A stretch of DNA of 60,882 nt from Candidatus Zhuqueibacterota bacterium (GTDB lineage Bacteria; Zhuqueibacterota; Zhuqueibacteria; Oceanimicrobiales; Oceanimicrobiaceae), in contig JAJDAG010000173.1 in assembly GCA_029262005.1 (NCBI GenBank), positions 1-60,882 on the forward strand, written 5' to 3'. Positions 2,036-21,426 of this stretch are shown here, one piece after another. The notes under the pieces were generated by a model, which was given only the letters and a program-made list of their open reading frames with translations, ran no database searches and was not told where the DNA came from. Positions within the stretch are counted from its first letter, which is position 1. Every line of letters starts with the position of its first letter. The position numbers and the translations under genes are program-made.

Positions 2036-4471
2036 CTACTTGAGCAATTCATACATGCGCCGTCTGGTGCTCACTTCACGATCATCAAAAAAGTCGAGCA
2101 ATTCTGTTTGAAAATCCGTGATGGTCGCGAAACGTTGTTCCGGAATTTTGTCAAGCGCTCTGGTGAGAATTCGGTCTAACTCCAAAGGTAATCCCGGCTT
2201 GATGGTTGAGGCTGGTAGCGGTGTGTCGGCCAGAATATTCAAGCGTGTGTCGGGAGCAATTTCCGACTTGAATGGGTGTGTGCCGGTCAGGCTTTCATAA
2301 AGAAGGGTGCCTATTTGAAAAATGTCGCAGGTCTCCGTCAGTGTCTGACCCTGAATCTGTTCCGGTGCCAGGTAGGCCATGGTATCAGCGTCAAACTCTT
2401 CGGCTGATTCCGTGTAGCGGAGTTGCAGCAGACTACCGTCCACCACTTTGATTTCTTTGTGCGCACCCATGATGAAAATATTTTCCGGCTTTAGATTCTT
2501 GTGCCAGATTTGACTTTTGTGATATTGCGAAAGAACGCGACAGATACCAACAAATATTTCCAATATCTCCTGTGTTCCAGGTTTTTCATGCGTCATCAAA
2601 AAGCTTCGAAGATTCTTCCCTTCTATATGTTCGCGCACAAGATAGAGTGTATTCTCTTCTTCCCCCGCATCATAAATAACCCCGATGTTGGGATGGTTTA
2701 TGCGATTAAATCTGCGAACTTCGTCGTAAAACTGTTTTCTGAGCGTGGCCGTATCTTTGTGTGCCGCAAATGCATCTACCCGATGTGCTTTAATAATGAC
2801 CGGGCGTTCCAGTTGCGTATCATACCCTCGATAAGTTGAGGAAAAGGGCGCCTGCCGTAAAGTTTCCGTTACTTCATACTTGCCGAAATGGCGCTTTTCT
2901 TTGAAAGTAGGAACTTCAGTTTTGTTCTCAGTTCTATCCTCCGTAAAAGCAATTTTATAGAGGATGTGTTCTTGTGGAAAATAAGTCAGATTGAAGTTTC
3001 CTGTCTTATGACTGTTCAGGCCTGAGACTTGGCTGACCACTTGCTCACTGAGCATAACACAATCTGTTTCCAATTCAGAGGGGCTTATTGGTTTCTCTCC
3101 AAATTCGGGCTCTGCAATGCTGCGGTTGTGGATTTTTACAGTCTTGCGTAACTCACGAATACCATCATTTTCGAGTTCGCCAAAGGGAAGTGGCGTACAG
3201 TGCAGCGTGATGCGCATGTGAATAACTTCAGAATCATCGACGACCTGGTTGTAACGTTGCAGCTTTTCTATAATTTCCGTTGCTTCGGTCACCATCTTTC
3301 TTGGATTGGTTGCCAGCGCCACCATGCCGTCTGCGGTTTTTGCGCATTTGATTTCGCGTGATTGCAGCATATCTCCACAAATAAGCTTGAGAAATGTCTG
3401 AAAGGGGAGCTTTGACGTTTCTGCCTCATTCTCATAATTGGTGATTTCGAACAGTGCAAAAGTGTTTGTGGGGAAATCCGTAAGGTCAATTTCCGGTGTC
3501 TGCGAAGCGCCACCGTTGCCGTTTAAACTTAACACGCCTTTTGGGGCGGCGCTTTCCGAATCGTTGATTTTGCTCAATAAATCGTGGGCCAGGCGGAACG
3601 ATGGCTCGAAATCCGGTGGGATGCTTATGGACTGCGTAACTTCATCGATATTTTCGATTGCGTTATCCATGAGCATAATTTCATACTCGCCTTCAGCACC
3701 TTTGTCAGAAGGATTTTGTTTTTCTATCGCGAGCAGCAGGTTTCTGAAATCCAAATATGTTTCAAGCTCATGGATTCGAGTCAGTCGTTTTTCCGGGTTA
3801 AACTGCTTGAAACAGAAGTGTGCCTGGTGTGCTGACAGTGAAAAAGGATGATTTAGTTCTTCGGCGCTGGCCTTTTTTCTAAGCAGGGTGTCGCAAAAGG
3901 CTTGCGCGTAAAACGAGTCATCTTTTGACTGTGCGTGCAGGCTTTTCAATACTTCCAGTGCATCGTCAAATTTGTTGTCACGCAAAGCGGTGCGCAAAAA
4001 CAAATTCAGCAACTCAGGATTGTCACCCGATTCCAAAAGAGTCTTCTTGATTTCCGGAATGGCAATGTTTCCTGTGTTTTCGCTGAAAACGGCCTCAAGC
4101 GCAGCGCGGATTTCTGGTTCTTGCGGCGAGGAAAAACTCAGGCTTTTGTGCAATACCCGTAAAGCCGGATCTGCCACCACTTTTTGGTTAATAAAAAGCG
4201 TGGACAGGCTCAGGAACAAGTTCTCGTCATTGGGATGTCGGGTTGTGGCGCGCGCATAGGCATGCAAGGCCTCTTCTGAGGTGGCCTGCATTCCTGTCAA
4301 CGCCAATGCATGATTGAGAACAATCTCATCATCCTCAAAATTCTGACTGACCAGTTGTTTAAATTTGTCAGATGCCTTGGTATATTCACGATTTTCCAAA
4401 TAAGCAATGCCGAGCGCTTTGAGTAGCGCTACGACTTTGGGATCGGTGATTAGGTTTTCTCCTTGCATCAT
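2036..4471 (-). CDS. TPR / degenerate cyclase-like / pseudokinase protein (module A)
   Basis: This 811-residue cytoplasmic protein has three parts. TPR-like helical repeats cover about residues 1-220. A middle region of about 340-500 resembles a degenerate class III nucleotide cyclase domain; that assignment rests mainly on comparison with its paralogue at 23486-25975. A Hanks-type kinase fold runs from about 530 to 800. In the kinase part the VAIK lysine (VIIK) and the alpha-C Glu are kept. The catalytic loop, however, reads HKNLKPEN instead of HRDLKPEN, so the base Asp is Asn. DFG is replaced by DGS and the glycine loop is lost. It is therefore probably a pseudokinase, a scaffold or allosteric partner rather than an enzyme. 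It overlaps the preceding TPR gene by 4 bp (ATGA), implying translational coupling. It is the last gene of the minus-strand array. Confidence 0.8.
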   Translation of the reverse strand: MMQGENLITDPKVVALLKALGIAYLENREYTKASDKFKQLVSQNFEDDEIVLNHALALTGMQATSEEALHAYARATTRHPNDENLFLSLSTLFINQKVVADPALRVLHKSLSFSSPQEPEIRAALEAVFSENTGNIAIPEIKKTLLESGDNPELLNLFLRTALRDNKFDDALEVLKSLHAQSKDDSFYAQAFCDTLLRKKASAEELNHPFSLSAHQAHFCFKQFNPEKRLTRIHELETYLDFRNLLLAIEKQNPSDKGAEGEYEIMLMDNAIENIDEVTQSISIPPDFEPSFRLAHDLLSKINDSESAAPKGVLSLNGNGGASQTPEIDLTDFPTNTFALFEITNYENEAETSKLPFQTFLKLICGDMLQSREIKCAKTADGMVALATNPRKMVTEATEIIEKLQRYNQVVDDSEVIHMRITLHCTPLPFGELENDGIRELRKTVKIHNRSIAEPEFGEKPISPSELETDCVMLSEQVVSQVSGLNSHKTGNFNLTYFPQEHILYKIAFTEDRTENKTEVPTFKEKRHFGKYEVTETLRQAPFSSTYRGYDTQLERPVIIKAHRVDAFAAHKDTATLRKQFYDEVRRFNRINHPNIGVIYDAGEEENTLYLVREHIEGKNLRSFLMTHEKPGTQEILEIFVGICRVLSQYHKSQIWHKNLKPENIFIMGAHKEIKVVDGSLLQLRYTESAEEFDADTMAYLAPEQIQGQTLTETCDIFQIGTLLYESLTGTHPFKSEIAPDTRLNILADTPLPASTIKPGLPLELDRILTRALDKIPEQRFATITDFQTELLDFFDDREVSTRRRMYELLK

Positions 4472-6294
4472 ATTGTGCCGCTGCTCAGTTTCTTCAATTT
4501 TTTGTCGAGTTCACGTTCCATGATTGCGATGGCATTGCCATCGGTGCGACCTTGACTCAGGTAGTAGTCCGAAACAATTGAGTTGATTTCGGCTCTTCTC
4601 TGCGTAAGAACATTGAGTTTCAAAGTTGTCTCAAAAACCCGAATGGCGTTTTCATCCCGTTGGTCTTCCAGTAGGTAAATATTCGCCAGAATCGGATAAA
4701 GCGCTACGCGTTCAGGTTTTTTTTTCAGAAAATTTTCGTAGATCCTGGCCGCTTTTAAGTAATGTCCCTGAGATAGATACACGCGAGCACGGAGTGTTGG
4801 CGAAAAAGCAAAGGCACCAACCATAGGCAACAACAAAAGTGATACGCCTGAGCCTATCCACAGCAGCGCGCCGGTATTTTTTGCATCTGTTTTGGCGGCC
4901 ATATTGCCATTGCGCTTCAGGTTAAAACGGGCATCGGCCAGTTTGTTCTCCACATCTTTATAGGCAGGATTCAGCATCTTTACCTTTTCAAATGCCAGAA
5001 CAGCCTGCAACCAGTCACTCGTTTGCAATGCGGTAACGCCATGTTGGTAGAGTGTGTCGATGTTTGTTTTTATCTGTCGTTGCTTTACCAGTGCATCGCG
5101 GATTTTGAGGAGTTGCTCTTCCGTATCTTCGTAGCTAGGGTCGATTGCTTGCAAACTACTGAATACAGCGGCTGCCTGCCGCCACTCCTTGTTTTCCATC
5201 AAGGTTTTTCCTTGCTTGTAAAGCTGTGCCGTTTTAGCTTTCTTCTCTCGCGCAGCTCGAAGTTCCCGTTGGGCCTGTGCAAGCAGATTTGCAACATTGC
5301 CATATCCCGGTTCAAGCCGCTGCACCGCATCGAATTGTTCCAGCGCTTGTTGCCACTGCTTTTTTCTTAAGGCAGCCACACCGTTCTTGTAGTGTTGTTC
5401 GATAACCGGGGTCTCCGGCTCTGTTTGCACAACTGTTTTTTGACGCACGCGTTGTTTTGCCACCGGTTGGTTTTGTGCGCTGTCTATTTTCGGCGGGGAC
5501 ACTTTTCTTTCCGGTTTGCTTTGAGGTTGAACCTGGCTATCGATCTGCAGGGGTTGTACACGCTGGGCGGATTGCAATCGTGCTGTTTCCAGAAGCGTCA
5601 GGACATCTTTAAAGTTCGGGTCAGCTTTTGCAATTCTTTCGAGAAGCGTAATCGCTTCGGTGTGGCGCCCGGCTTGCAGCAGGGAATTGGCATTGGCGTA
5701 TTGACTGTTGAGTCCCTGTTTGCCGTTTGCTTTTGTAATGGCTTCGTTGAAGAGAACGCTATTTTGCGGCAGCAGCCGTTTGCCTCTTCGCAATATTTCC
5801 AGCGCTGTGGTGTATTCGCCCTGGGCAATATAGGCCTGGCCGAGTTCATAGGCAGTTCGGCCTCGCAGGGAATTGTTTCTGCCGGCGAGTTGTTCAACGC
5901 CCCGAAACGTTTCAATTCCTTTTTTCGTTTTCCCGGTGAGCATATACACAGTGCCCAGTTCAAACAGAATCTGTGCTTTGATCTTATCGTTCAAAGCGTA
6001 TGGATTGGTATAATAAGCTTTGTTCAGCGTGATTTCAGCTTGCTGGTATTGTTGATTGGACTTATATGCCAGGCCAAGATAAAAAAATGCTTCAACATAG
6101 TTAGGGTCCAGTTGCGTGGCTCTCTCAAATGCTTGAATTTTTTCATTAAGAGAAGCCGCATTCACACCTTTTTGGAAATACTCGGATGCAGTCTGACTGA
6201 TACCATTGGAAGCAAAAATCAGCAATAATAGCGTGATTATAAAATGAATGTTCGTGCTTTGTTGACAAGAATGCTGTCTTTTAAAGTGGTGCAT
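4468..6294 (-). CDS. TPR membrane protein with periplasmic and cytoplasmic repeat parts (module A)
   Basis: The open frame extends upstream to 6489, but that part lies inside the FHA gene. The ATG at 6294 gives a clean signal peptide (MHHFKRQ..., then a hydrophobic core FIITLLLLIFA), so I use it; the protein is then about 608 aa. Residues 35-470 are tetratricopeptide repeats, with a Lys/Pro/Gln-rich linker near 245-290. A transmembrane segment (ALLWIGSGVSLLLLPMV) lies near 477-498 and is followed by about 110 residues of further TPR-like helices. The predicted topology is periplasmic TPR, one membrane span and cytoplasmic TPR. The C-terminal part is clearly homologous to the short module-B gene at 25972-26382. 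It overlaps the FHA gene by 14 bp and the pseudokinase gene by 4 bp. TPRs are protein-binding, so it may link the envelope to the cytoplasmic pseudokinase. Confidence 0.8.
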   Translation of the reverse strand: MHHFKRQHSCQQSTNIHFIITLLLLIFASNGISQTASEYFQKGVNAASLNEKIQAFERATQLDPNYVEAFFYLGLAYKSNQQYQQAEITLNKAYYTNPYALNDKIKAQILFELGTVYMLTGKTKKGIETFRGVEQLAGRNNSLRGRTAYELGQAYIAQGEYTTALEILRRGKRLLPQNSVLFNEAITKANGKQGLNSQYANANSLLQAGRHTEAITLLERIAKADPNFKDVLTLLETARLQSAQRVQPLQIDSQVQPQSKPERKVSPPKIDSAQNQPVAKQRVRQKTVVQTEPETPVIEQHYKNGVAALRKKQWQQALEQFDAVQRLEPGYGNVANLLAQAQRELRAAREKKAKTAQLYKQGKTLMENKEWRQAAAVFSSLQAIDPSYEDTEEQLLKIRDALVKQRQIKTNIDTLYQHGVTALQTSDWLQAVLAFEKVKMLNPAYKDVENKLADARFNLKRNGNMAAKTDAKNTGALLWIGSGVSLLLLPMVGAFAFSPTLRARVYLSQGHYLKAARIYENFLKKKPERVALYPILANIYLLEDQRDENAIRVFETTLKLNVLTQRRAEINSIVSDYYLSQGRTDGNAIAIMERELDKKLKKLSSGTI

Positions 6295-8716
6295 GTTCTT
6301 TCGTTCCCCGGTTCTCTCGTATTTTATTTTGTCTGCTTTTTTTCTGGGTGAAAGTAAAACCTGCGGTGGCGGCAAACAACAAACCGAATGCAGCAAATGC
6401 GATATTGCCGGCCCTTGCCGCGGAATTGATTTGTTCGGCTGTGCAGTGGTGGGTCGCGCTGCTAAACGCCTGCCCCCAAATAACGGCATTGCTTTTTATT
6501 GGCGAGTTTGTTTGAATTCGATAAATGTTGCCATCCTGGCGCGTGAATAAAAGGTCGGTGAGTTCATCATCATCAATGTCTGCTGCAAGAATTGACGAGG
6601 CCACCGGATTCGATTCGTTGTGAATCTGAGAAATGATCTTTCCATTTATGCCATTAAATAAGAATATGGAGCCGCTTAAACCGGCTACAATAACTTCGTT
6701 TGCGCCGTCCTTGTTCAGATCAACGAGCGTGACCGGCGAAATAAAATAATCATCCGACTCCGCATAGTACTCCCAGAGCACTTTTGCAGTGCCAGTGGGC
6801 TGTGCGCCGCCTTGAATGATTTTTAGTGACTGATTCGAAGTAAGCACCGCATCTAATTGCTCATCGCCATCTATTTTGCCAATGGCTGGTGCGAGGTTTG
6901 TCTTGTTGAAATGTAAGTCACTATGCAGTTTCTCTTGCCAAATTGATTTAAAATTCTCGCCATCAACAGCAAGGTATTGACCGCTGGTCGAAGACATTAG
7001 CAAGTCCGCAACGGTATCATCGTTGAGATCGAAAATGGCAATTGGCGCCTGTATTTGTTGCGGCACGTTTGTCTCAGTGCCGGCCTTTTCCGCAAAGTTG
7101 AGCACCCTGGATAATTTCCCGGTCAAGCCGTCAACGATAATGACTTTTCCATCTTCAGTGCCAATGAAAATAGTACATTGCCCGTCGCCCTGAATGTCCG
7201 CCGAAGAGGGGGTGCCTTTTATGGATAGACGTGTGTTTACTTTTTTCCAGTTCAGTTGAAAAACGTCACCGTAACCAATGTGGAGTTGACCATCTTTGGC
7301 TGCCACCAGTACATCTTGAAGGCCGTCACCATCAAAATCGTTGACGACAGGTGCACTTGTGAGCTCTCCGCCAAGCAACGGACTTAGCCACATTTCCGCA
7401 CCATTTTTACCATCAAAGGCATGTAATCGGGCATCCTGGCCAACGACCAGCACATCTTCGAGATCATTTTGATTCATATCCGCGAGAACAATAGGCAGGT
7501 CACTTCGCACACGCAGATGGTCATTTTCCCAGAGGCGGTTTTTTGTCAAGCTGTCCAGCACTTTAAGGCGGCCTTCAGCATCAACGAAAACCACATTGGC
7601 CATATCATCTCCGTTCAAATCAGCGATGGCGATGTTTGTTTCGCGAGTTGCGGAAACGGTGTTTGCTGTGGCGGTTGTTGGTTCCGGTCCCTGGTACCAG
7701 GTTTCTTCAAAAAATTTCAGTTGTTCCGGTGCTGCATTCAGCAACCAGCTATTGGTGCAGGAAATACCAACTACGGCAACTGTAATGACCGCAAAGACAG
7801 CAGATAAAATCGGCATCATCCTCGGGGCATTGCGTATCCACCAAATGCCTGCATGTTTGGGTGGACTATAGTCAGGCAGTTCATTTGTAACAAACCTGAA
7901 AATGGTACTTTTCTGGTCGCTGACTATTTCAATTTCATCGCCTTCATGCACGCTGCATTCGTCGCTTGAGCTCAGTTTTTTTTGATTGACATAGGTTCTG
8001 GTTTTACTGCGTTTGTCACTTACCACAAATCGACCATTGTCGTTGCTGATGGTTGCGTGTCGCCTTGAGATACTTGGGTCGAGGTCGCCATGCTCATTGT
8101 TGCGGATAACGATGTCATTGAGCGTGTTGTCGCGCCCAATTCGAGTGTCGCCAATTTTGAGAGGATATTTTTTGCCAAGATACGGGCCGTAAATAACAGC
8201 GAGACTGTAAGCCGAATTTTCAGCCGCATCCTGTGTCTGCGTTTGCGTTGAGTGATTTTCGGCAACATCGCCAATTTCAAAGAACTCATCAGTCTCCTCT
8301 AAGCCGGGTGTGTCCTGCGTAGATTTGAAGTGAAAGACATTGCCCAATTCATCTTCACCAATAACTTCCAGCGTATCATTTACGCTTTGTTTCTGCGGAG
8401 ATGATGCCTGCACAATGTCTGCGAACAGGATTGAGTAGGGGCCGAATGTCAGTTCATCGCTGTCGGTAATTTGTTTACGAACTGTTAGAGGTTCGCCGTT
8501 CAGCTTTAATCTTGACCGGCTGTTTTGTTTGTCAATAAATAAACCATCATCCGGGTGCTCGATTTTCACTTGAACCGAGGCCACGCTGTCATCCGGAATA
8601 ACGAAATCACATTTTGCACCTGAGCCAACCAGATAGACTTTTTTGTTAGACTCGAGGGCAAACTTCTCGACGAATTCCTGGTTTTTTTTTAGAATAAGTT
8701 TCGGTGTTTCCGGCAT
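6281..8716 (-). CDS. Membrane protein with two FHA domains and an FG-GAP propeller (module A)
   Basis: The N-terminal 95 residues form a degenerate FHA domain. A second FHA domain at about 170-265 has the canonical binding residues (IGRD, SRRH and a VN before the last strand) for a phosphothreonine peptide. A membrane span (LSAVFAVITVAVVGISC) lies near 300-320. Residues about 360-745 form eight FG-GAP/VCBS-type repeats with Asp-rich calcium loops such as ADLNGDDMAN, NDFDGDGLQD and VDLNKDGANE. A second span near 770-790 is followed by a basic tail. The predicted arrangement is cytoplasmic FHA domains and a periplasmic propeller tethered at both ends. It starts 2 bp after the PEGA kinase stops and overlaps the TPR gene. 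I infer that the FHA reads phosphorylation by the neighbouring kinase. The paralogue is at 27729-30449. Confidence 0.88.
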   Translation of the reverse strand: MPETPKLILKKNQEFVEKFALESNKKVYLVGSGAKCDFVIPDDSVASVQVKIEHPDDGLFIDKQNSRSRLKLNGEPLTVRKQITDSDELTFGPYSILFADIVQASSPQKQSVNDTLEVIGEDELGNVFHFKSTQDTPGLEETDEFFEIGDVAENHSTQTQTQDAAENSAYSLAVIYGPYLGKKYPLKIGDTRIGRDNTLNDIVIRNNEHGDLDPSISRRHATISNDNGRFVVSDKRSKTRTYVNQKKLSSSDECSVHEGDEIEIVSDQKSTIFRFVTNELPDYSPPKHAGIWWIRNAPRMMPILSAVFAVITVAVVGISCTNSWLLNAAPEQLKFFEETWYQGPEPTTATANTVSATRETNIAIADLNGDDMANVVFVDAEGRLKVLDSLTKNRLWENDHLRVRSDLPIVLADMNQNDLEDVLVVGQDARLHAFDGKNGAEMWLSPLLGGELTSAPVVNDFDGDGLQDVLVAAKDGQLHIGYGDVFQLNWKKVNTRLSIKGTPSSADIQGDGQCTIFIGTEDGKVIIVDGLTGKLSRVLNFAEKAGTETNVPQQIQAPIAIFDLNDDTVADLLMSSTSGQYLAVDGENFKSIWQEKLHSDLHFNKTNLAPAIGKIDGDEQLDAVLTSNQSLKIIQGGAQPTGTAKVLWEYYAESDDYFISPVTLVDLNKDGANEVIVAGLSGSIFLFNGINGKIISQIHNESNPVASSILAADIDDDELTDLLFTRQDGNIYRIQTNSPIKSNAVIWGQAFSSATHHCTAEQINSAARAGNIAFAAFGLLFAATAGFTFTQKKSRQNKIRENRGTKEHAPL

Positions 8717-8718
8717 CG

Positions 8719-11268
8719 CTATTCGTTGACCTCCTTTGCGAGATTGAACTCCAGCAAGCTCATACCTGCCGACTCAATAACAACCGACTGCTCTTGATAT
8801 GCATAGCCGTTTTTGCTTGTTCTGAACAAGTAGAGCCCGGCTTTAAGAATACCATTGACCGTTCCATCAAGATCGGTTACATCGAGAGATTCCCGCGCTC
8901 TGTTGCGTTTGTCCATTGCCTTGTAGCGTACTTCAACGTTGCTAAGTGGCCGCCGGGTTGAGTTGTCTAAAACCACGACTGAGAACTGGCCGGAGGATGG
9001 TTGCATGCGCGCAGTCACCAAATTGGTTGACGGCGTCACTTTGACTCTGAGATCTTCGTAGCCGGGTTTGGAAAAAGTAGCGTAGTAAGTTTGCGGTTGC
9101 AGATTGACCGTGAGCGGCGTTATGCGTCCGGATGAAACTGTTTTTTTGCCTCTGGTCAACTTTGTAAGGGTGGTACGCAACTCTTTTTTATTCTTGTCAG
9201 CCACACTATATGCGACAAACTTGACGGGCCGCGCCAGAACTTCGAAAATTTTAGTCGGTGTGTTTGCACTGACTTTTATGTTTAGTTTTTTGGTATTGTA
9301 GCCTTTCTTTTTTAGAACAATACTGTGGCTCGCAGCGGTGAGGAAATAGCCTTTTTCTGCACTTGTATATCCAATGGGATTGGCGTTATTGTCCAGATAA
9401 ATGGCAGCCTTAGGCGGACTTGAATTGATGCTGACCAGTTTGCCAAACAGACCACGAATGCGATGATTTATAGTCGGTTCTACTTGAACGTCATAGTTCC
9501 ACAGCCGTCGATCTTCAATTTCTTCAATCATTTGTTCATCAAGGGCAAAACCAATTAAGTCGGCAAACCCGGCCTTTTTAAGCTGAATATCGCAGCGCTC
9601 GCCAATTTCCCAGGTTACGGAGCACGGTGTGTTTTGTCCGAACTTTATGCCATTAATAAAGACTTCCGCATTTTCCGGAGTTGATTCTATTTTCAGGGTT
9701 GTTTTGAATTTGAATGTATACGGTTTATTGCCCCGGCGCATTTCTTCACCCTTGACAGTGATTTGGCCTTTACTGGGAATATGCAGTGATTTCACAATGA
9801 ATTCGTAAGGCTTTAACACCAATTTCAGTTCATAGATGCCGGGACCAATTTTATCAATTGCAAGGGGGGTTTTACCCGGCAGGGCTTCATTGTTTAGAAA
9901 CACCTGTGCGCCCGCCGGCATCGATGCAATCCTGATTGCAGGCGGAAACAGGAAATCGTAGATACCAGTGCCGAAGTCTGTCCATTGCATCGAAATGTCC
10001 AGCAGCAAAAATGAAAACAGCATGGCTGCAACTGAAATCAAACTTTTGACCACCAGTTTTTTGTGGCCGCGTGCCGACAGCCGAATTACGTCAATGACTG
10101 TTTTTATCTCATCGTCGTCATCGAACGATGCCTCTGGAATTGGACCAACCGGTGCCGGCGGCAGATTCAGCGCTTGCCCGAACGGTTCATTCGTAACGAT
10201 TCCACCATTTGGCATGGGAGCGCCTTGGTCCAAATGGTTTGATTTCAGACCATCCTCTGTTCCCAGATCAATTTTATGATTGTTTTCAATAGCAGGACTT
10301 GGGCTGGTGACTCCCAGAGTGTCGGTTGATTGTGATGACGCTTCCGCAATTGTAGATTCCTGCACAAACTCAACCAACTCTGCATCAATTGCCGTGGGCG
10401 CACCGTTCATGACCAGGTAAGTGACCAAATCAATATAAAACTGGTTGGCATTTTGAAAACGCTTTTCAGGCGTTTTTTCAAGCGCTTTCTTAATTATTTT
10501 TTGTAACGGTTTAGGCGATCGTGAAAACCCTTTTAGTTTTATCTTGCCGTCGCGCAGTGTCTCAACAATTCCTTGTGTGTCATCCCCTTGAAAGAAACGC
10601 TTTCTTTCCACTAACTCATACAAAACCAGCCCTAGAGAAAAAATGTCAGAGCGCTTGTCGAGTGTATGTTCCGTGGACACATGCTCGGGTGACATATACT
10701 GCACCTTTCCCTGCAATGTGATGGTGGAAGCATCACTGACAGCTTCTTTCTGAACACCGGCAATACCAAAATCGATAAGCTTAACGATGCCGGTGCCGGA
10801 GATCATAATGTTGCCTGGTGAGATGTCCTGATGTACCAGGTTAAGTGGTTCATTGCTCTCTGTATTACGGCAATTGTGGGCATAATCGAGGGCTTTACAA
10901 ATCTCTGCCACAATGTGGACTGCAATGTGGACCGGCACAGCCTTGTCAGTTAATTTGCTTCTTTTGAGAAAGTGGATCAGATCAAAGCCATCAATAAATT
11001 CCATAACGATGTAGAACTGACCTTCCTTTGTCTGCACCAAATCGAAAATGTGGACGATGTTCTGGTGGTGCATTTGGGCAACGTGCCGTGCTTCATTCTG
11101 GAACTGATCGATGTACCATTTGTCCTCTACCAGATCCTGATTGATTTCTTTGACGGCAATGTCTTTTCCCAAAACATTGTCGTAGCCTTTGTAAATCGTG
11201 CCGAAACCGCCGCGTTTGATGACACTGAGCAGTTGGTAACGATTGTTTAGTAATTTCAGTGATTCCAT
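8719..11268 (-). CDS. Hanks-type Ser/Thr kinase with periplasmic PEGA repeats (module A)
   Basis: The kinase domain covers about residues 8-275, with the glycine loop GGFGTIYKG, the VAIK lysine (AVKEI), the catalytic loop HQDISPGN and an intact DFG (LIDFGIAG). Because the Arg of HRD is Gln, this is a non-RD kinase, although the catalytic Asp is present. A flexible Pro/Ser/Asp linker (300-395) precedes a membrane span near 408-428. The periplasmic part has at least three PEGA-type repeats (for example IASMPAGAQVFLNNE and IESTPENAEVFINGI) and ends in a carboxypeptidase-regulatory-like beta domain. PEGA domains generally bind cell-envelope surfaces or proteins. It begins module A and directly follows the pilus genes (24-bp gap to the PilX-like gene). 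The paralogue is at 30464-33124. Confidence 0.9.
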   Translation of the reverse strand: MESLKLLNNRYQLLSVIKRGGFGTIYKGYDNVLGKDIAVKEINQDLVEDKWYIDQFQNEARHVAQMHHQNIVHIFDLVQTKEGQFYIVMEFIDGFDLIHFLKRSKLTDKAVPVHIAVHIVAEICKALDYAHNCRNTESNEPLNLVHQDISPGNIMISGTGIVKLIDFGIAGVQKEAVSDASTITLQGKVQYMSPEHVSTEHTLDKRSDIFSLGLVLYELVERKRFFQGDDTQGIVETLRDGKIKLKGFSRSPKPLQKIIKKALEKTPEKRFQNANQFYIDLVTYLVMNGAPTAIDAELVEFVQESTIAEASSQSTDTLGVTSPSPAIENNHKIDLGTEDGLKSNHLDQGAPMPNGGIVTNEPFGQALNLPPAPVGPIPEASFDDDDEIKTVIDVIRLSARGHKKLVVKSLISVAAMLFSFLLLDISMQWTDFGTGIYDFLFPPAIRIASMPAGAQVFLNNEALPGKTPLAIDKIGPGIYELKLVLKPYEFIVKSLHIPSKGQITVKGEEMRRGNKPYTFKFKTTLKIESTPENAEVFINGIKFGQNTPCSVTWEIGERCDIQLKKAGFADLIGFALDEQMIEEIEDRRLWNYDVQVEPTINHRIRGLFGKLVSINSSPPKAAIYLDNNANPIGYTSAEKGYFLTAASHSIVLKKKGYNTKKLNIKVSANTPTKIFEVLARPVKFVAYSVADKNKKELRTTLTKLTRGKKTVSSGRITPLTVNLQPQTYYATFSKPGYEDLRVKVTPSTNLVTARMQPSSGQFSVVVLDNSTRRPLSNVEVRYKAMDKRNRARESLDVTDLDGTVNGILKAGLYLFRTSKNGYAYQEQSVVIESAGMSLLEFNLAKEVNE

Positions 11269-11292: not shown

Positions 11293-12513
11293 CTAGTCCA
11301 TTGCCGTAATAAAGCCGCGCATGAACGGTTCGACCCGGTTTGTCCTGGGATAATATGGCGGTGTATTTAATCTGAGCCGCGTATCATACAAATGCGTGAA
11401 ATTGAAATTGTTGACCGGCAGTGAAGTGGCCGGTATTCGGGATGTTGCCAGGCTGTCCTCTACTGCAACAATTGAACCGAGCAATGTTAACGCCAGGTCT
11501 GCATTGGCCGCTACTTTGTTCTCGATAAGCACGGAACCGATGCCACTGCTGGCGGCCATCACAGCGGCCTGAACCACCATCCCGGTATTGGTTGTATATT
11601 GAAAGATGACTCTATTTCTTGCAATGATACCAAGATAGTCTTGAGATGTGCCGTTTATGCTTGGATTGGTTTTATAGCGTAATGTATCTTGAATGATGAT
11701 GTCTCTGCCTGAAGTAACCGTCATTCTCCCGGCAACAATTCCGCGTACTTTGATGTCGTTTCCGTCGGTTGTTCCGATGGTGCCATTGTTAGCATTTAAT
11801 TTCGTGGCAATGGCCCATGTAAGGCTGTCTGCAGACCAGGTATAAGTACTGTCATCATTAAAAACCAGCCAGATGGATTGATTAAACCAATCGCCGGATG
11901 CGGCTGTTACAGTACGCAGAGGATTTAACATTGCGTCATTCGGGACTTGAATGGTCTGGGTATCTAATTCTGCACCGCCGTAAAGTTTGGGGTTACCATC
12001 ACCGTTAAAGCCAATGTTATCATCGGATGAAACCCGGCCCATAAAAATCGGTGTGCCGGTTACTTTGATTTTCGAATTGGCATGAACCGGACCCCACAAA
12101 GTGTCTCCGCTTGCATACGTGCGGTGCGATGGCCAGTCGTGCATGAAAAAGTAGTAAAATGAATAAGCCGGCCACATGACAGCAGCGTAGGTGCTGTCCG
12201 CACCACCGGCATAACTCGTTGCCACTTCAATACCGAGGCTAACCACCTGATTTACCGAGTCAGCGGTGGCATCAAAAGTGCGGATGATACCTTGTACACC
12301 GTTTAATTCGAGTGTGTCGTCCGGCACGCTGTCTCGATAGACCTTGGATAGCGCAACGTTGGTAATGCTTTCGATGGCATTGTTTCGCAGCCAGCGATCG
12401 TACTGCCGGACTATTTCCTTTGACGAACTTTGCTGACTCGATGTCAGGTTAAACATGACGCCTGTAAAAATGGTTGTAAAACCAACCACGATAATCATCA
12501 AACTTCTACCCAT
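11293..12513 (-). CDS. PilX-like pilus-associated protein with leaderless N-terminal membrane helix
   Basis: The 406-residue protein starts with a hydrophobic helix right after Met-Gly (MGRSLMIIVVGFTTIFTGV). A long beta-rich exported part follows, with GPVHAN and repeated Gly/Asn-rich turns. This layout is like PilX or DUF4900-type proteins in pilus loci of related bacteria; the family name is recalled, not verified. There is no classical prepilin leader and no Glu5. It is the last pilus gene before signalling module A and is separated from the previous pilin-like gene by 186 bp that hold no gene. A small palindrome (CGGCATGCCG near 12621-12630) lies in that gap. Its role may be pilus priming or tip structure. 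It could alternatively be a surface adhesin. Confidence 0.62.
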   Translation of the reverse strand: MGRSLMIIVVGFTTIFTGVMFNLTSSQQSSSKEIVRQYDRWLRNNAIESITNVALSKVYRDSVPDDTLELNGVQGIIRTFDATADSVNQVVSLGIEVATSYAGGADSTYAAVMWPAYSFYYFFMHDWPSHRTYASGDTLWGPVHANSKIKVTGTPIFMGRVSSDDNIGFNGDGNPKLYGGAELDTQTIQVPNDAMLNPLRTVTAASGDWFNQSIWLVFNDDSTYTWSADSLTWAIATKLNANNGTIGTTDGNDIKVRGIVAGRMTVTSGRDIIIQDTLRYKTNPSINGTSQDYLGIIARNRVIFQYTTNTGMVVQAAVMAASSGIGSVLIENKVAANADLALTLLGSIVAVEDSLATSRIPATSLPVNNFNFTHLYDTRLRLNTPPYYPRTNRVEPFMRGFITAMD

Positions 12514-12699
12514 GATATAATGGCCTTATTCTTTAATATGAGTGCTTAAACTTCGAGCATGTTTTATTGGGAAACTCTGCTCTCTTAGCCGAAATCTCCT
12601 GCTACCGGACATTTTAATCCGGCATGCCGTTTCGCACCGGCCGGAACGCGAGTGCGTCCTGCTTCTACTTGTTGCTGCTCCGGCGCTATTTGTTCAATG

Positions 12700-13284
12700 T
12701 TACAAATTTTGGTTTGTGATTCTGATAATATTCACCGGTGTAACGCGCTTTTGCCATCTGGCCACAGGATAGCCGACGTCGCCATATTGAAACTCGGATT
12801 GCACTTCCAGGAAAATATCAATAATTGCCACATCGTTTAGCTCGGTTGTAGCGCTGCCGGTCCAATCATACAGTTTAACTGAAAATTGGGTTACACCGGC
12901 AGAAGTGTTTATTGTCGTTGTGCCATTGACAATTCGGTAAAGAATTTTGTCATTGGGGTTTTCCGTGTTTGGCGCCTGGTCGGCATCGCTCAAATAGTAA
13001 CGGACTGTTTCAGCAACTGCATCGTTGTCGATATCAGCGAGAAATGTAATATCCGTCGAGTCGGAAATGGAAACAATCGCTTGCGATGCATTGGCCACGC
13101 CACTGCCTATTTTACGAAAGTCATAATCAATGATCTCCGCGACTGAAGCCATTGATTCCTGGGTCCACATTTCCTGCATACGAACGTTTTGATGTTCAAT
13201 CACATCATCATAAAAGGTCATGACACTCAGCATAAACAGTGCGCCAATAACAATGCTGCCCATTAATGTTATTGTAGAATCCAT
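12700..13284 (-). CDS. Minor pilin-like protein (PilW-like)
   Basis: The 194-residue protein begins MDSTITLMGSIVIGALFML, a membrane helix with almost no leader, followed by an alpha helix with Tyr/Asp and a beta-rich C-terminal domain. The pattern of an N-terminal helix and a region around FRKIGSGV that resembles the PilW/GspJ stretch supports a minor pilin. There is no GFxxxE prepilin-peptidase motif. An AGAGG ribosome-binding site lies about 6 nt before the ATG at 13284. It sits between two other pilin-like genes; the gap to the preceding gene is 12 bp. The function, minor pilin of the tip complex, is inferred from position and shape. Confidence 0.6.
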   Translation of the reverse strand: MDSTITLMGSIVIGALFMLSVMTFYDDVIEHQNVRMQEMWTQESMASVAEIIDYDFRKIGSGVANASQAIVSISDSTDITFLADIDNDAVAETVRYYLSDADQAPNTENPNDKILYRIVNGTTTINTSAGVTQFSVKLYDWTGSATTELNDVAIIDIFLEVQSEFQYGDVGYPVARWQKRVTPVNIIRITNQNL

Positions 13285-13296
13285 AAAGCCTCTTGC

Positions 13297-13794
13297 CTAC
13301 TTGTTTTTTTGATAGGAAAATATATAGGATGCGACCACTTCATTCGGCAAGTAGTCATTGGTTACATTTACGGTCATTTTTTTGTAATACTGCCTTGTGG
13401 CAACAGGTGTATTCAAGTCGCCGGCTTCAACATATTGAAATACCACTTCGACCTGCATGGGAATGCCTGTCGAATTATCTTCAATATCGAGGCCGTTGAA
13501 ATCATCAATATCGTCAAAGCCGTGTGGGTAGCTCTCATGGCCGGCGTGCCCCATGCCAGTGGGGTGCGCGAATGAATTAATAGTTACTGTTCGTTCTTTA
13601 TTGATTGTGTTGTGGTCATACGCTTTTGTTTTGGCCTCTTCAATATACTTTTGCGCCACATTCATGGCCAAATATTCCACTTGTTGGTCATAGAGCGCTT
13701 CTGAACTGTTGATGATGTTTTGATTGACAGTGATGGATGTCAAGCCAAAAATGACCATGGCTCCAAGTGTGAGAAGTAGCTCTCTGTGTCCCAC
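13297..13794 (-). CDS. Minor pilin-like protein (PilV-like), GTG start
   Basis: The 165-residue protein starts MGHRELLLTLGAMVIFGL, a hydrophobic helix right after Met-Gly, followed by a helical stretch ending in AQKYIEEAKTKAYD and a beta-rich domain. This is the general shape of PilV/GspI minor pilins. The GTG at 13794 is the chosen start because GGAGGTAACA stands immediately before it; this ribosome-binding site is embedded in the last codons of the secretin gene, whose stop is 2 bp away. The arrangement couples translation of the two genes. There is no canonical prepilin leader or Glu5. Confidence 0.62.
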   Translation of the reverse strand: MGHRELLLTLGAMVIFGLTSITVNQNIINSSEALYDQQVEYLAMNVAQKYIEEAKTKAYDHNTINKERTVTINSFAHPTGMGHAGHESYPHGFDDIDDFNGLDIEDNSTGIPMQVEVVFQYVEAGDLNTPVATRQYYKKMTVNVTNDYLPNEVVASYIFSYQKNK

Positions 13795-13796
13795 TG

Positions 13797-15044
13797 TTAC
13801 CTCCGGCGTCTGTTGTTTATGCGGCTTTTGCTGGGCGGTGCCGATGTTTTCAATTGCCGCATTTTGCGTAAGAATTCCTGCCGTTTTTTATCGATATAGA
13901 TTCTTCTATTGGCTGAGCGGGCAGCGATTCGATCCGAAATACTTGGCAGGATGTTGGCCTGCAAGACTATAACCAATTCTCTTTTCGTGACACTTGTTGA
14001 ATTAAAGCCAAACAGGTAACGCAGCCCAAAGAACCACGGTGGCAGGTCTTTTAGAAGCGGCAGCCCGCGCCGAACTTCATTTTCTGTGTTTGAAAAAAGT
14101 CCGGCAACAACGGTTTCTTCGCCGCTCATCAGCAGAACTTGTGTTTTGCTCTCAGTTATGGTTTTTGTAACTGCCTGAGCTGCCGGCACCACGGTGCTGC
14201 GCTCTGCCCGGATATCGAGATGGACAAACATGGAGTCTGGTCCGCCAACGATGATTGGCGTCACTGTGAGTATGATGCCTGACTCATATTCCTGAAAAAT
14301 AGTATTCCCGGCAAAATCAGTGGTGGTTAAAAAGAAATTCTGACCGACCTTAATTTTGCCCTCTTCGCCCTCAAGCACCTTGATTTGCGGGTTGGCAATG
14401 ACTTCGCCTTCCTGGAAAGACTCAACGGCTCTCAGGAATGCGAATAAATCTACTGAGCGGAAACTGCGTCTCACCTGGGCGGTTATGTCATTGCTGGCTT
14501 GTTGCGGAGCAAAGTTGCCAAAAATTTCAACCCGCCCACCGTTAATGGCGGACCAGTTTACGCCGGCCTGCCGCAAGGTCTGGTAGTTTGCTTCGAAGAA
14601 AACGGCGTTGATTTCTATCTCACGCGATGATGTCGTGATGAGGTCGTCTTTGGGGCCCTTGGCTTTCTTGATCAGGGGAATGATTTCGTAATGGCGATCT
14701 TTCTCTTCATATTTGAGCAGGTTTGAGCGCAGAATATATTCAAGCGCTCGCTTCCAGAACATGTTGTTGACCACGACGCTAATGGCTGGATTTGCAGTCT
14801 GCGAATTGATGATTATTTTACCCTCATGCTTCATGCTATATTGGCTCAGAATGTCTATAGCGGTTTTTAGCGGCAGACTGCTATCGAGTGTTACTTTTTC
14901 GTCCGACCGAATGGTGCGGCCGGGATAGTTTTGCTGCGCCCGGAGATCCGGCACCGGGCTGCATACGAGAAAAAACAATAGTAATAGAATTCCCCGCGAC
15001 TTTATTTTGAAATTTAGATTTCTATACAACTTGAGATGCTCCAT
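13797..15044 (-). CDS. Secretin (PilQ/GspD family outer-membrane channel)
   Basis: The protein forms the outer-membrane gate through which a pilus or pseudopilus passes. A signal peptide (about residues 15-36, core GILLLLFFLVCSPVP, ending at RAQ) is followed by an N0/STN-like domain (about 45-115, with LKTAIDILSQYS and AISVVVNNM). The conserved secretin core follows at about 140-370, with VIANPQIKVLEGEEG, GIILTVTPI and the final RRGLPLLKDLPP motif and ELVIVLQ strand typical of the family. The length of 415 aa is short for PilQ, which usually has extra N1 and AMIN domains, so this is a minimal secretin. It also has a basic C-terminal tail rich in Arg and Lys. It is 18 bp from the PilO-like gene. 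Confidence 0.9.
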   Translation of the reverse strand: MEHLKLYRNLNFKIKSRGILLLLFFLVCSPVPDLRAQQNYPGRTIRSDEKVTLDSSLPLKTAIDILSQYSMKHEGKIIINSQTANPAISVVVNNMFWKRALEYILRSNLLKYEEKDRHYEIIPLIKKAKGPKDDLITTSSREIEINAVFFEANYQTLRQAGVNWSAINGGRVEIFGNFAPQQASNDITAQVRRSFRSVDLFAFLRAVESFQEGEVIANPQIKVLEGEEGKIKVGQNFFLTTTDFAGNTIFQEYESGIILTVTPIIVGGPDSMFVHLDIRAERSTVVPAAQAVTKTITESKTQVLLMSGEETVVAGLFSNTENEVRRGLPLLKDLPPWFFGLRYLFGFNSTSVTKRELVIVLQANILPSISDRIAARSANRRIYIDKKRQEFLRKMRQLKTSAPPSKSRINNRRRR

Positions 15045-15062
15045 TTGAGAAATTTATACCTG

Positions 15063-15971
15063 TCACTTTCGCGGGTCTATTGAAAGTGTAATTTTTTCTG
15101 ATATGCCGAATTTTGTGATAATAAATTCGGCTTTACCACTTTGTTGATAAATTGCCACCAGTCTTCCAAGGTAGACGGCATCGCCGATGCGAAGCTCTTT
15201 TACGCCACTGCCACCCTCTGAAATGAAGACTGAATTGGCCGTAACAGCTTTGATTGATGCTTTACGTACATCAATTTCACCCGGCTTCTTCTTGGGTAAA
15301 GTTGGTTTTTTAGGTTTGGCCCTGACTTCGATGTTTTTTATAATCCTTTCTTTTACCAGAGGCTTGAAAACATCGTGCTGGGCAACGTAAGCGCTGGCAT
15401 CGGTGAGCTGGTATTCTGAAAAATTCTCATTAATGTCGGATTGACTATCAACCGTAAAGCCTTGCAGCTTCATGTTGAACCGGATAAACTCACTGTCTTT
15501 TCCGCTGGGACGAAGGGAAATTGATTCTATCTGGTAAAGAATCGGTTCGTAGGTTAAATGCCAGATCAAGCGATTGATGTCATTGTAAGTTCCTTCACCG
15601 GCCAGGGTGTAGGCGAATTTGGTTACATCTCCGCTTTTACGTTTGGAGTTGAGCACGAAATCGTAGTAAATATTTAAATTGTAACTTGACATTATCCAGT
15701 TTAGATAGGACAGGGTAAAGGATGGTTCATCTGCTGAGATGATTCGTTTTGGTGATTGTTGCCATTTTGTTGTCACTTCACCATGAATATTTTCGACCTT
15801 GGTCAAACGGCTGACTTCAGTTTGTGATTGTTTTAGAACGGTGCTCAAGCGCTGTTCCTCTTTAATGGCGCCCACCAGATTATTGGCGTCGGTGAAATAC
15901 CAAAAGGAACCTAAGGCCAGGAGCAAAATCCAGATAATTAAGAGTGTGGCGCTGTTTTTACGTGCGAACAT
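15063..15971 (-). CDS. PilO-like inner-membrane alignment protein with PilP-like C-terminal domain
   Basis: There is an N-terminal membrane span (LLIIWILLLALGSFWYF, residues about 9-26). A coiled-coil region (EEQRLSTVLKQSQTEVSRL) follows, then a ferredoxin-like domain at about 75-185 of the PilO type. After a Lys/Pro linker (KPKKPTLPKKKPGEI, near 225) a small beta domain near 235-300 resembles PilP: it contains GVKELRIGDAVYLGRLVAI and ends in a strand pair. PilO and PilP usually are separate proteins that connect the inner-membrane PilM/N complex to the secretin. Here the two appear fused, next to the PilM-PilN fusion and the secretin gene. The PilP part is an inference from position and shape. 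Confidence 0.72.
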   Translation of the reverse strand: MFARKNSATLLIIWILLLALGSFWYFTDANNLVGAIKEEQRLSTVLKQSQTEVSRLTKVENIHGEVTTKWQQSPKRIISADEPSFTLSYLNWIMSSYNLNIYYDFVLNSKRKSGDVTKFAYTLAGEGTYNDINRLIWHLTYEPILYQIESISLRPSGKDSEFIRFNMKLQGFTVDSQSDINENFSEYQLTDASAYVAQHDVFKPLVKERIIKNIEVRAKPKKPTLPKKKPGEIDVRKASIKAVTANSVFISEGGSGVKELRIGDAVYLGRLVAIYQQSGKAEFIITKFGISEKITLSIDPRK

Positions 15972-16110
15972 TGATGGTAGCTACTCAGTTTTTTAGTTAT
16001 TAAAAGACAGCATTTTTAGTAAGGCAGCTTATTTTTTTAAAATAAAAGCTCCGGCCATTTTTTTGACTGATGTTTTCCGACACTTGCAATTAATAAGCAT
16101 CGATATATTT

Positions 16111-18123
16111 TTATCCAGCCTTCTTAAATCTCACAACCTTGTTTTTGATGCGTGCTTGAATGGCAAAAGTCTCCGACGTCTTTTGCGCCTCTTTGATAGT
16201 GCCGAATGTACCAATAATAAGTGCGTATCTTGTCGTTTTGCCGTCCTGGGTTATCGGCGAAACAGTGGTTTTGTAGCCTTTCTCGCGAAAGGAGGTTCCT
16301 GCCGCGGTCGCTTGTGCCGAGGTGTCATAAGTACCAACTTTTAGTCCATAAACATAGGTGTCGGCTGCAACAGCAGTGGATTTGGTGTTCGATTTTTTGT
16401 TTGCACTATTGGTCGGCAAGCGGCTTTTATCGAGATGTCCGTTTGTGCTGCCATTGCTGCCACGTTTAGGCAGTTCTGCCTGCAGCGGCCGGCTCTTTTT
16501 TGCCGGGTTCTTCTCACTGTTGCGATTTTTCAGGAACGAAAAGATGGTGAGGTTTTTATTGGCGTCAGTTTCATCGAGGTGTTTTTCCAAATGAAAGGTA
16601 AAGACGCTTGCGCCCAGAAATTCAGACCGCGTTACTTTTTTTAAATCAGCGCCGCCGATGGCGTTGGCAATAATCGGAATTTTGGCACGCTTTTGGGCGA
16701 CACCGGTGATGTTCACTTTCGGCCCTGTTTTTTTCATCTCAGTTATCCAGATGTCTCTGGCGCCATGAACTTCTTTGTTGAGTAGTTGCAAAAAGGAGAT
16801 GGTCTCTCCGTAACTTATGCTAAAACTGTCAACCAGGGCAATTTTGCGTTCGATATCTATTATCTGGCCATCGTAGGTATGCACACGGTCGGTCAATGCT
16901 TTGTTGTTGTCAACTTGTTGTTGCATGACTTCGACGCGACGTGTGACTTTTCGTATTTCAAGATTTTTGGACACAAGGGCCCAGGTAAAAAGTAGGGCCG
17001 AACTTGTTATCAGGAACAGAAGAAGATAGCCGTGAACAGCAAGTCTGGGCACTGTTTGCCGGTCACGAATATATTCCGGCAAAAAATTGCTGTCCTTGGA
17101 TTTTACGGCGTTTTTGATAAGCGCCTTCCATGCAAGGGCGATGGGAACAGCGTACCGGGAAAAAAGCAACCCTCTGTCTTTGAAGCGCAGATCCGACGGA
17201 ATTTTCCTGGAATTTAAATAACCTGTGAGAGCAGATGGAAATTTTTGTCTGAAATAATACTTGGCTTTAAGTCTCGACGAGTGGCCCGCTACCAGAATTT
17301 TGTTTATTTCCGGGATAAAATAATGGTCCTGAGCGAAAATAATTCTGCTGTACAAAACCTCCAACACGTCTTTGGACAAGCTGCCTTTGTGGAGTGTTGG
17401 TGTTATGTGAAAAATATCTTTGCCATTGAGGAAAATAACTCGCGAAAAATCCTGCTCAATGTAGACGATGGCCGTAATCTCATCTTTGTCAAATTTGTAA
17501 ATCTCTTTAACCAGATCGACGAGAGCCAGCTCATTGGTGTCCATCAAAACCAGATTCAAGTTGTTGGAGCGAAACTGATTGACTTCTTCCATAAGTTCGA
17601 TGACCGGAGGATGATATTCATAATCAACCATGAGCGTCTTGTCATCGCTCGCATTTAAATATTTTGTACCATGCGCGTCGTCTTCGCCTTCGCCTTCGCC
17701 TTCTTGTCCCCAGATATCCATTTTGCTTTTCAGGCGATTTTTCTTTTTTGGTGCCTGTTGCTTTTCAATGAAATCATACTTGACCGTGAGGTGAGGCGCG
17801 TTAATGGCGACATTGGCCTTCATGTTGTTAAATTTGTCCAGAAGGGCGTAAACTTTACTCACGTTCTGTGCAGCATCATTGCTTTTTGATACCTCAGGTT
17901 CCTCCGCCTGGGAAGTTCTGGGTTCATTAATGTCAAATGCATTTTCCAGATCGTTTAATGCTTCCGGTTCGGCCTTGTCTTCTGAGTGAGCATGGTCAAT
18001 GGGCTGGTCCAATGTGATGGATTCGAGCGCCTTGATGCGTGCTTTACCGCGAACAAGGGAGAGGAAGGCTGCCCTGACCTCATTGCCGTTTATTGTAATT
18101 CCTATTGCGTGTTTTGTTTTCAT
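16111..18123 (-). CDS. PilM-PilN fusion with C-terminal SPOR domain
   Basis: The protein has 670 residues. The N-terminal ~350 look like PilM, an actin-like ATPase fold: it starts AIGITINGNEVRAAFL, and a VYIEQDFSRVIFLNGKD strand pair follows near 220. A membrane span (GYLLLFLITSSALLFTWALV) lies near 365-385. A coiled coil and a PilN-like domain follow (about 385-510). After a Lys/Ser/Asn linker, residues about 589-668 form a SPOR-type domain (YVYGLKVGTYDTSAQA, then YALIIGTFGTIKEAQ). SPOR domains bind peptidoglycan stripped of stem peptides. The fusion would place an ATPase, a platform protein and a wall-binding module in one chain. The usual separate pilM and pilN genes are missing here. The ATG at 18123 is the first in-frame start. 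Confidence 0.78.
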   Translation of the reverse strand: MKTKHAIGITINGNEVRAAFLSLVRGKARIKALESITLDQPIDHAHSEDKAEPEALNDLENAFDINEPRTSQAEEPEVSKSNDAAQNVSKVYALLDKFNNMKANVAINAPHLTVKYDFIEKQQAPKKKNRLKSKMDIWGQEGEGEGEDDAHGTKYLNASDDKTLMVDYEYHPPVIELMEEVNQFRSNNLNLVLMDTNELALVDLVKEIYKFDKDEITAIVYIEQDFSRVIFLNGKDIFHITPTLHKGSLSKDVLEVLYSRIIFAQDHYFIPEINKILVAGHSSRLKAKYYFRQKFPSALTGYLNSRKIPSDLRFKDRGLLFSRYAVPIALAWKALIKNAVKSKDSNFLPEYIRDRQTVPRLAVHGYLLLFLITSSALLFTWALVSKNLEIRKVTRRVEVMQQQVDNNKALTDRVHTYDGQIIDIERKIALVDSFSISYGETISFLQLLNKEVHGARDIWITEMKKTGPKVNITGVAQKRAKIPIIANAIGGADLKKVTRSEFLGASVFTFHLEKHLDETDANKNLTIFSFLKNRNSEKNPAKKSRPLQAELPKRGSNGSTNGHLDKSRLPTNSANKKSNTKSTAVAADTYVYGLKVGTYDTSAQATAAGTSFREKGYKTTVSPITQDGKTTRYALIIGTFGTIKEAQKTSETFAIQARIKNKVVRFKKAG

Positions 18124-18189
18124 TATGTTGTTACTTGGGGCACACCCGTCATTATTCAGACAATAATTTCAAACTATAATCTGTTTTTT

Positions 18190-19425
18190 TTACGAATAAT
18201 TATATTTAATTAATTCTTCAAACCGCTTCTTATTGTTCGAATTTATGTAAGCATCGAAATAAGAGATTTTATTTTCGGCGTAAAGCCTGGCTAAATCCTG
18301 CTCCATCGTGTTCATTCCATGCTCACGGGATTGGTGAATGACCTGGTAAATTTCTCCAAGGTTGTTATTACGTATGGCCGCTTTGACAGCAGATGTGCAC
18401 AACAGCACTTCTTTTGCCAGAACGCGTCTGCCATCCTGGGCAGGTACCAGTTTTTGTGAAACAACACAACTCAGGACATCAGCCAGCCGCGTGCGGATAC
18501 GGTCTTGCTCGTTTGCTGGTATTTCCCCCAGAATTCTATCGATGCTTTCTATGGCGGATGAAGTGTGCAGAGTCGAAAACACTTTGTGGCCGCTGTCAAC
18601 AACTTCGAGCACAGTCATGATGGTTTCGGCATTGCGCATCTCACCGATCATGATAATGTCCGGATCCTGCCGCAAGGCCTGAATCGTGCCTTCTTTGAAC
18701 GAGTGCACGTCGCGCCCGACTTCACGATGCTTGACGATGGACTTTGCCGGCTCATGTACGTATTCGATGGGATCGGCAATGATAACGATATGCGATTCCA
18801 TGGTGCGATTATTTGCGTCGATAATTGAATCCAGTGTCGTACTTTTACCGGAGCCTGTGATACCGGTTATGAGAATGAGACCCGATTTTTGATATTTCAG
18901 GCTGAGAGCTTTTGCCACATGTTCGTTAAAACCCAGTTTTGAAAATGCGATGACTTCATCGTTGACTCGCCGCATGTTCACAGCCAGATGGGTTAAGTCG
19001 AAATAAACCGTCGCTCGAAATCGGCTCCAAAAGCTGTTTTGCGCATCTTCAACCCGGTATGAAAAATCAATATGCCGCTGCTCGAAAAGCTGTTTCCGGT
19101 CTGGTGCAGTCAGCAAATTGAGAATGAGAAAATCCGTTTCAGCAATGCTGTATTCCAGCATGGTTGGGTCCGGTGTCTTCGTACCAAATGTACGAAACCA
19201 GACCTGACTATTGCAGCCCGGGCCACCAAGGTCGATATCCGAGGCTTCAAGTTGCTTCATTCTTAGTAGAAATGCATCAAAATGACTTTTAAGAATGAGC
19301 TTGGTCTCTTCAGATTGATCTTCGAGCATTTGGACAATAAACTGCCACCTGTCTCCACCGACAACCTGAGGCTGAGCAGTATTGGCCAGACTGTTTAAGA
19401 GTTGTTTACTTTCTTGAAATGTCAT
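18190..19425 (-). CDS. pilT: PilT-type retraction ATPase
   Basis: This secretion ATPase drives pilus retraction. It has Walker A GITGSGKST (about residue 193), an Asp box with EYVHEP, Walker B DIIMIGEMRNAET and the His box LHTSSA, all matching PilT. An upstream TTG at 19455 would add 10 residues. I prefer the ATG at 19425 (MTFQESKQLL), because an AGGGGTGG stretch lies a little upstream and the extra residues look non-native. The PilT N-terminal PAS-like domain (residues 1-130) is present but divergent. It follows pilB, with a hairpin in the 153-bp gap. The presence of both a PilB and a PilT argues for a retractable type IV pilus rather than a type II secretion system. Confidence 0.92.
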   Translation of the reverse strand: MTFQESKQLLNSLANTAQPQVVGGDRWQFIVQMLEDQSEETKLILKSHFDAFLLRMKQLEASDIDLGGPGCNSQVWFRTFGTKTPDPTMLEYSIAETDFLILNLLTAPDRKQLFEQRHIDFSYRVEDAQNSFWSRFRATVYFDLTHLAVNMRRVNDEVIAFSKLGFNEHVAKALSLKYQKSGLILITGITGSGKSTTLDSIIDANNRTMESHIVIIADPIEYVHEPAKSIVKHREVGRDVHSFKEGTIQALRQDPDIIMIGEMRNAETIMTVLEVVDSGHKVFSTLHTSSAIESIDRILGEIPANEQDRIRTRLADVLSCVVSQKLVPAQDGRRVLAKEVLLCTSAVKAAIRNNNLGEIYQVIHQSREHGMNTMEQDLARLYAENKISYFDAYINSNNKKRFEELIKYNYS

Positions 19426-19576: not shown

Positions 19577-19578
19577 CA

Positions 19579-21414: not shown

Positions 21415-21426
21415 TCTGTTTTTACG

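Follow-up and report, generated by a model that had tools for sequence, protein, structure and literature searches.

Gene content of the locus

We found two related genes in the window, by which we mean the whole stretch of DNA analysed (60,882 nucleotides of contig JAJDAG010000173.1, from a Candidatus Zhuqueibacterota bacterium). Both are on the minus strand, as are all the features of the window described below. Gene A (2036–4471) is an open reading frame of 811 aa with a Pfam Pkinase match, gene B (23486–25975) one of 829 aa, and each encodes a TPR region, an apparent pseudocyclase domain and a pseudokinase domain, in that order. The two are paralogues along their full length (E 2e-69, with 25% identity across 818 columns); a third paralogue, less closely related, is found on another contig of the same genome (L080, 3023–5260). 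Gene A has three orthologues, with identities of 35–46%, and gene B has orthologues in six genomes of its bacterial family, with identities of 47–57%.

Pfam TPR matches cover about residues 1–190 of A (3902–4471). The degenerate class III cyclase domain of A takes up residues 333–520 (2912–3475), as placed by alignments and by hhalign with the family profile (E 3e-7), and its pseudokinase domain residues 528–800 (2072–2890), as placed by Pfam and by sequence matches to PknB in PDB. The corresponding domains of B are at residues 349–542 (24350–24931), from the AlphaFold2 model, Foldseek and VIA-align, and at 23534–24334. Both lobes of the kinase fold are present at the C-terminus, where Pfam PF00069 matches at E 1e-31 in A and 5e-36 in B, and PknB structures match the kinase region by sequence at E 5e-32. 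Past the kinase fold there is a short conserved C-terminal tail, STRRRMYELL in A-type proteins (2042–2071) and FSNFNVQIA in B-type proteins (23510–23536); these tails are possible interaction peptides.

Each gene ends a cassette. The B cassette begins with a PEGA Ser/Thr kinase whose catalytic residues are intact (HQD and DFG motifs; 30464–33124), followed by a protein with two FHA domains and an FG-GAP propeller (27729–30449, Pfam), a PP2C-type phosphatase with a TM segment (26389–27729; Pfam PP2C_2, E 3e-13), and a small TM-TPR protein (25972–26382) whose gene runs 4 bp into the start of B. The A cassette has a second PEGA Ser/Thr kinase identified by Pfam, again with intact catalytic motifs (8719–11268), a second FHA–FG-GAP protein (6281–8716, Pfam) and a large TM-TPR protein (4468–6489), whose overlap with the start of A is likewise 4 bp; a PP2C is absent from this cassette. 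Several members of the pseudokinase family have TPRs related to those of the TM-TPR protein encoded upstream. PADLOC matches proved to be generic kinase matches, and a defence system was rejected.

The same gene order recurs on one strand across the bacterial class: PEGA Ser/Thr kinase, FHA–FG-GAP protein, PP2C, often the TM-TPR protein, and the pseudokinase at the end. At least one module gene was found at 34 of the 35 loci with usable upstream sequence; PP2C was present at 29 and the FHA protein at 26, while the kinase was reached only at some loci because the sequence stretches are short. Elsewhere in the same genome (contig C19, L193:3845-6355) a TPR-TM-kinase protein with intact HRD adjoins a separate FHA protein gene; its kinase is among the ordinary kinases closest to A and B.

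Between the two kinase-FHA-TPR-pseudokinase cassettes is a type IV pilus-like cluster (11293–23289), identified by Pfam and NCBIfam and containing pilin-like, PilC, PilB, PilT, SPOR, secretin and other genes, the whole arrangement covering some 31 kb of the minus strand (2036–33124). Three of its products, in 11293–13794, are pilin-like or associated with the pilus, and Pfam and NCBIfam assign them weakly or not at all; there is a weak DUF4900 match among them, and the others are at 12700–13284 and 13297–13794. Cassettes and cluster have an identical order in one other genome (G003; L082 and L083). A general link to type IV pili was considered and dropped: outside bacterial family f1, wherever both were found, PilC and the pseudokinase are on different contigs, and PilC also occurs in genomes where the pseudokinase family was not found. 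Because the pilus cluster is elsewhere in the remaining families that were examined, these proteins cannot have the pilus as their general output.

Two degenerate domains

The middle region of A and B has no significant Pfam match. We built a profile from 21 middle regions, those of A, B and the third paralogue together with relatives, and compared it with 23 class III cyclases of related genomes, obtaining an hhalign probability of 93 and E 3e-7. Used for whole-genome search, this profile recovers bona fide cyclases at about E 1e-8, and in a single comparison the middle region of B alone matches one genuine cyclase at E 2e-5, the RYNFDKPESDQIHVRIGI of that cyclase facing RYNFVNEPSEHLHVSFGI of B. 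Weak Pfam matches to GGDEF in three members suggested another fold, which was rejected on an hhalign probability of 1%, against 93% for the cyclases. An AlphaFold2 model of the B middle domain, made with A and B as the only input, has a modest pLDDT of 56 and a pTM of 0.66; its best 40 Foldseek matches in PDB are class III cyclases (E 3e-6, probability 1.00), and VIA-align superposes it on the Mycobacterium avium cyclase Ma1120 with Z 12.7 over 144 residues. A two-sequence model of the cyclase and kinase half together was poor (pLDDT 43) and was set aside. Sequence comparison and predicted structure agree on a cyclase fold for the middle domain. The layout put forward in an earlier note on this DNA, with TPRs first, then a region resembling a degenerate class III cyclase, and a kinase fold last, is borne out by Pfam for the two ends and by hhalign and the model for the middle; structure prediction, which that note had named as a check of the middle region, came down on the side of a cyclase relation.

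Active class III cyclases have two metal-binding Asp residues, a substrate Lys, and a transition-state Asn and Arg, a set that A and B lack. Aligned to intact relatives, both have Glu for the first metal Asp, neither has the substrate Lys or the transition-state Asn, and Arg has become Lys; the second metal Asp is Asn in B and either Asp or Asn in A-type proteins. A search of the pseudocyclase for NxAxR gave four matches, but these align to the first helix (NLAxR), away from the active site. From these replacements the cyclase domain is predicted to be catalytically dead.

Kinase-domain residues were counted in 43 family members, all from one class, of which 42 are readable at the HRD position. 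None of the 42 has the Asp: 33 have Asn, seven Arg, one Lys and one Ser. The catalytic loops are HKNLKPEN in A (residues 657–664, 2480–2503) and HLNLKPSN in B (residues 677–684, 23924–23947), and the DFG position reads VVDGS in A (676–680) and LLDFL in B (695–699), so that the Asn and the altered DFG motifs (DGS, DFL) recorded in the earlier note were read correctly, and its view of both proteins as pseudokinases is upheld by the absence of the Asp throughout the readable homologues. The alignment of homologues that it proposed as a check on the Asn gave a divided answer: loss of the Asp is family-wide, but Asn itself is not conserved, one sub-lineage (L186, L184, L090, L182, L089, L185, L181) having Arg or Lys in its place.

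The other residues are unevenly kept. The β3 Lys is present in 40 of 43 members (Arg in the other three), the catalytic-loop Asn in 42/42 and the DFG Asp in 41/41; most members have lost the DFG Gly and the glycine loop, which in A and B alike is degraded. The αC Glu persists in A-type proteins and a small number of other members, whereas B and most of the family have lost it. A pseudokinase has been defined as lacking at least one of β3 Lys, HRD Asp and DFG Asp (PMC12599244), a definition that takes in A and B, with the HRD Asp missing throughout. We predict that their kinase domain is without catalytic activity. It probably still binds ATP with one metal, because loss of the catalytic Asp, in most members together with the αC Glu, has left the β3 Lys, loop Asn and DFG Asp in place; HER3 and JAK2 JH2, with the same residue pattern, bind ATP with one cation (PMC4718504). 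Given the degraded glycine loop and the three members with Arg for the β3 Lys, some of the family may no longer bind ATP.

The linker ahead of the B cyclase domain is variable, with two of 80 positions invariant apart from one motif, SSLTYEDF (24995–25018), of the form S-x-[LI]-T-[YF]-[ED]-D-F, whose Ser, Thr, Asp and Phe are kept in all seven B-type proteins. It contains a TxxD sequence; phosphorylated TxxD is a classic target of FHA domains (as for Rad53 FHA1), and Thr323 of B is a candidate site for FHA docking. A-type proteins lack a conserved TxxD, which is otherwise sporadic in the linkers of other members. With conservation confined to the B type, phospho-docking may not be a general property of the family.

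Origin and retention of the family

A tree was built for 78 kinase domains after the HRD columns had been taken out of the alignment; exactly one change separates the Asp-less from the Asp-bearing sequences in it (SH-aLRT 99, from a quick search). On this tree the HRD Asp was lost once, at the base of the family. The paralogues A and B are thus not independent cases, and the Asn that they share is no coincidence, being inherited across the whole family.

A profile search placed the family in 31 of 63 searched genomes of the class; the matches across the class include a small number of true cyclases, yet each genome concerned also has a family member. No member was found by this search in 19 other genomes of the phylum, and outside the phylum the profile matches are cyclases of other architectures. 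Open frames of 750–910 aa are maintained across six families. Pairwise dN/dS among close relatives is 0.02–0.27 for the kinase domain, 0.10–0.34 for the middle domain and 0.08–0.22 for the TPRs, leaving aside saturated comparisons and a zero from one nearly identical pair. Retention of the Asp loss over six families, together with dN/dS well below 1, argues for selection and against decay. To that extent the suggestion of a selected pseudoenzyme in the earlier note stands; its argument from the same change in two paralogues falls with the single origin of that change.

Possible function and comparison with known systems

We lean toward a reading of A and B as non-catalytic, probably ATP-binding scaffolds for phospho-signalling, placed at the membrane and set by the kinase, FHA protein and PP2C of the module. 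Both domains appear dead, are under selection, and are encoded beside an apparently working kinase, phosphatase and phospho-reader, which points to a scaffold and probably not an enzyme. To judge from gene order, the TPRs of A and B would dock on the translationally coupled TM-TPR protein, bringing the scaffold to the membrane beside the active PEGA kinase of the operon. That kinase would phosphorylate the scaffold, in B most likely at Thr323 of the TxxD motif; the FHA–FG-GAP protein would read the phosphate and PP2C would strip it. ATP occupancy and phosphorylation would set the shape of the scaffold, hence assembly of the complex, and in the bacterial family of A and B the type IV pilus machine between the cassettes may be among the outputs. 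In mycobacteria the MviN pseudokinase is phosphorylated by PknB and read by the FHA domain of FhaA (PMC12599244), and this trio is the closest working precedent.

The main rival, which we think rather unlikely although it could hold together with the scaffold, is an allosteric activator: the pseudokinase would dimerise with the kinase domain of the operon PEGA kinase and switch it on, as HER3 does for EGFR and STRAD-alpha for LKB1. The active kinase does belong to the same module and the residue pattern is HER3-like, but FHA and PP2C are steadier neighbors than the kinase in the stretches read, many of which are too short to reach the kinase. It is improbable that the fold is an unconventional enzyme, with weak phosphotransfer or with some other ATP-dependent transfer such as AMPylation (SelO) or glutamylation (SidJ). 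Its ATP and metal ligands are retained, and bacterial kinase folds lacking the canonical catalytic motif do have such activities (PMC12599244); against this, the Asp position is occupied variously by Asn, Arg, Lys or Ser, unlike a catalytic site, and we identified no conserved acid or base to replace it.

Two further explanations concern the cyclase fold and the genes themselves. Class III cyclases are dimers with shared sites and genuine cyclases are present in the same genome, so the middle domain might be half of a heterodimer, active only with a partner cyclase. We give this very little weight, as the genuine cyclases are on other contigs and residues of both half-sites are altered (Asp to Glu, Lys and Asn lost, Arg to Lys), leaving neither half intact. 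Least credible of all is that A and B are decaying, pseudogene-like paralogues; several catalytic motifs are degraded, as decay would have it, but the frames are long and open across six families, omega is well below 1 in all three domains, and the operon position is conserved. The scaffold reading can be widened, tentatively, to a lineage-wide hub, in which a cyclase-kinase fusion, with both enzymes dead, would have been retained as a scaffold gated by nucleotide and controlled by phosphorylation. Such a hub would be a bacterial equivalent, with the domain order reversed, of the pseudokinase in receptor guanylyl cyclases, set in a kinase-FHA-PP2C module that flanks a pilus cluster in one family.

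Receptor guanylyl cyclases (GC-A, GC-C) resemble A and B in fusing a class III cyclase to a kinase fold that lacks the HRD Asp and has a degraded Gly loop, and the kinase homology domain of GC-C, without that Asp, binds ATP through its Lys (PMC12493192). They are membrane receptors with the pseudokinase N-terminal to an active cyclase, whereas in A and B the order is reversed, the cyclase residues are lost and TPRs replace the receptor part; the analogy drawn in the earlier note, opposite order included, holds as far as architecture goes, though the receptors have a working cyclase and A and B seem to have lost activity in both parts. MviN (ActPs3) of Mycobacterium is a pseudokinase that likewise shares its pathway with a Ser/Thr kinase (PknB) and an FHA protein (FhaA). 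It has lost the β3 Lys and DFG, which A and B largely keep, so these fall outside ActPs3, and it belongs to a peptidoglycan-synthesis membrane protein with no cyclase fold (PMC12599244). HER3 and JAK2 JH2 share with A and B the change of HRD Asp to Asn and the retained β3 Lys, loop Asn and DFG Asp, with the αC Glu lost as in B; being eukaryotic and fused to other domains, they serve only as a mechanistic yardstick. CP1 pseudokinases are defined by fusion to a COG3899 ATPase (PMC12599244), and in A and B Pfam finds only TPRs and kinase. The T6SS threonine phosphorylation pathway (PpkA-PppA-Fha1) is like the present module in that kinase, PP2C and FHA protein are encoded together and control an envelope machine; the machine differs, and no pseudokinase or pseudocyclase takes part.

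Two bacterial fusions are closer in composition. The TOMM kinase/cyclase fusion (TIGR03903) joins a Ser/Thr kinase and a cyclase in one polypeptide, but with the kinase N-terminal; A and B score 68.4 and 56.2 bits against it, in the kinase part only, far short of the cut-off of 705.75. A protein from another phylum (L206, 1160–4372) has the cyclase followed by the kinase as in A and B, and A aligns across both domains at E 6e-41. Unlike A and B it has no TPR, ends in a TolB/WD40-like propeller, and retains all catalytic residues; judged by its sequence, the cyclase-then-kinase order does exist in intact form. Two genomes, both from one other family, were found to carry this cyclase-kinase-propeller protein. 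A separate observation from another phylum is an FHA-cyclase-like fusion (L203:3056-3934), its transition-state Asn replaced, beside PilB and PilC and near PP2C.

Bacterial pseudokinases are largely unexplored experimentally, according to a 2025 review, whose selection of families includes none with TPRs, a cyclase fold or the operon of A and B (PMC12599244); our search of the pseudocyclase literature returned engineered mammalian cases only. The present proteins are new as a bacterial pseudokinase family and unusual in their double-pseudoenzyme architecture; they involve no new principle. Because an apparent kinase, phosphatase and phospho-reader are encoded next door, the function of the family can be tested with few proteins. 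With the intact fusion for comparison, the family lends itself naturally to testing how a cyclase–kinase pair can be put to new use once both parts have lost catalysis.
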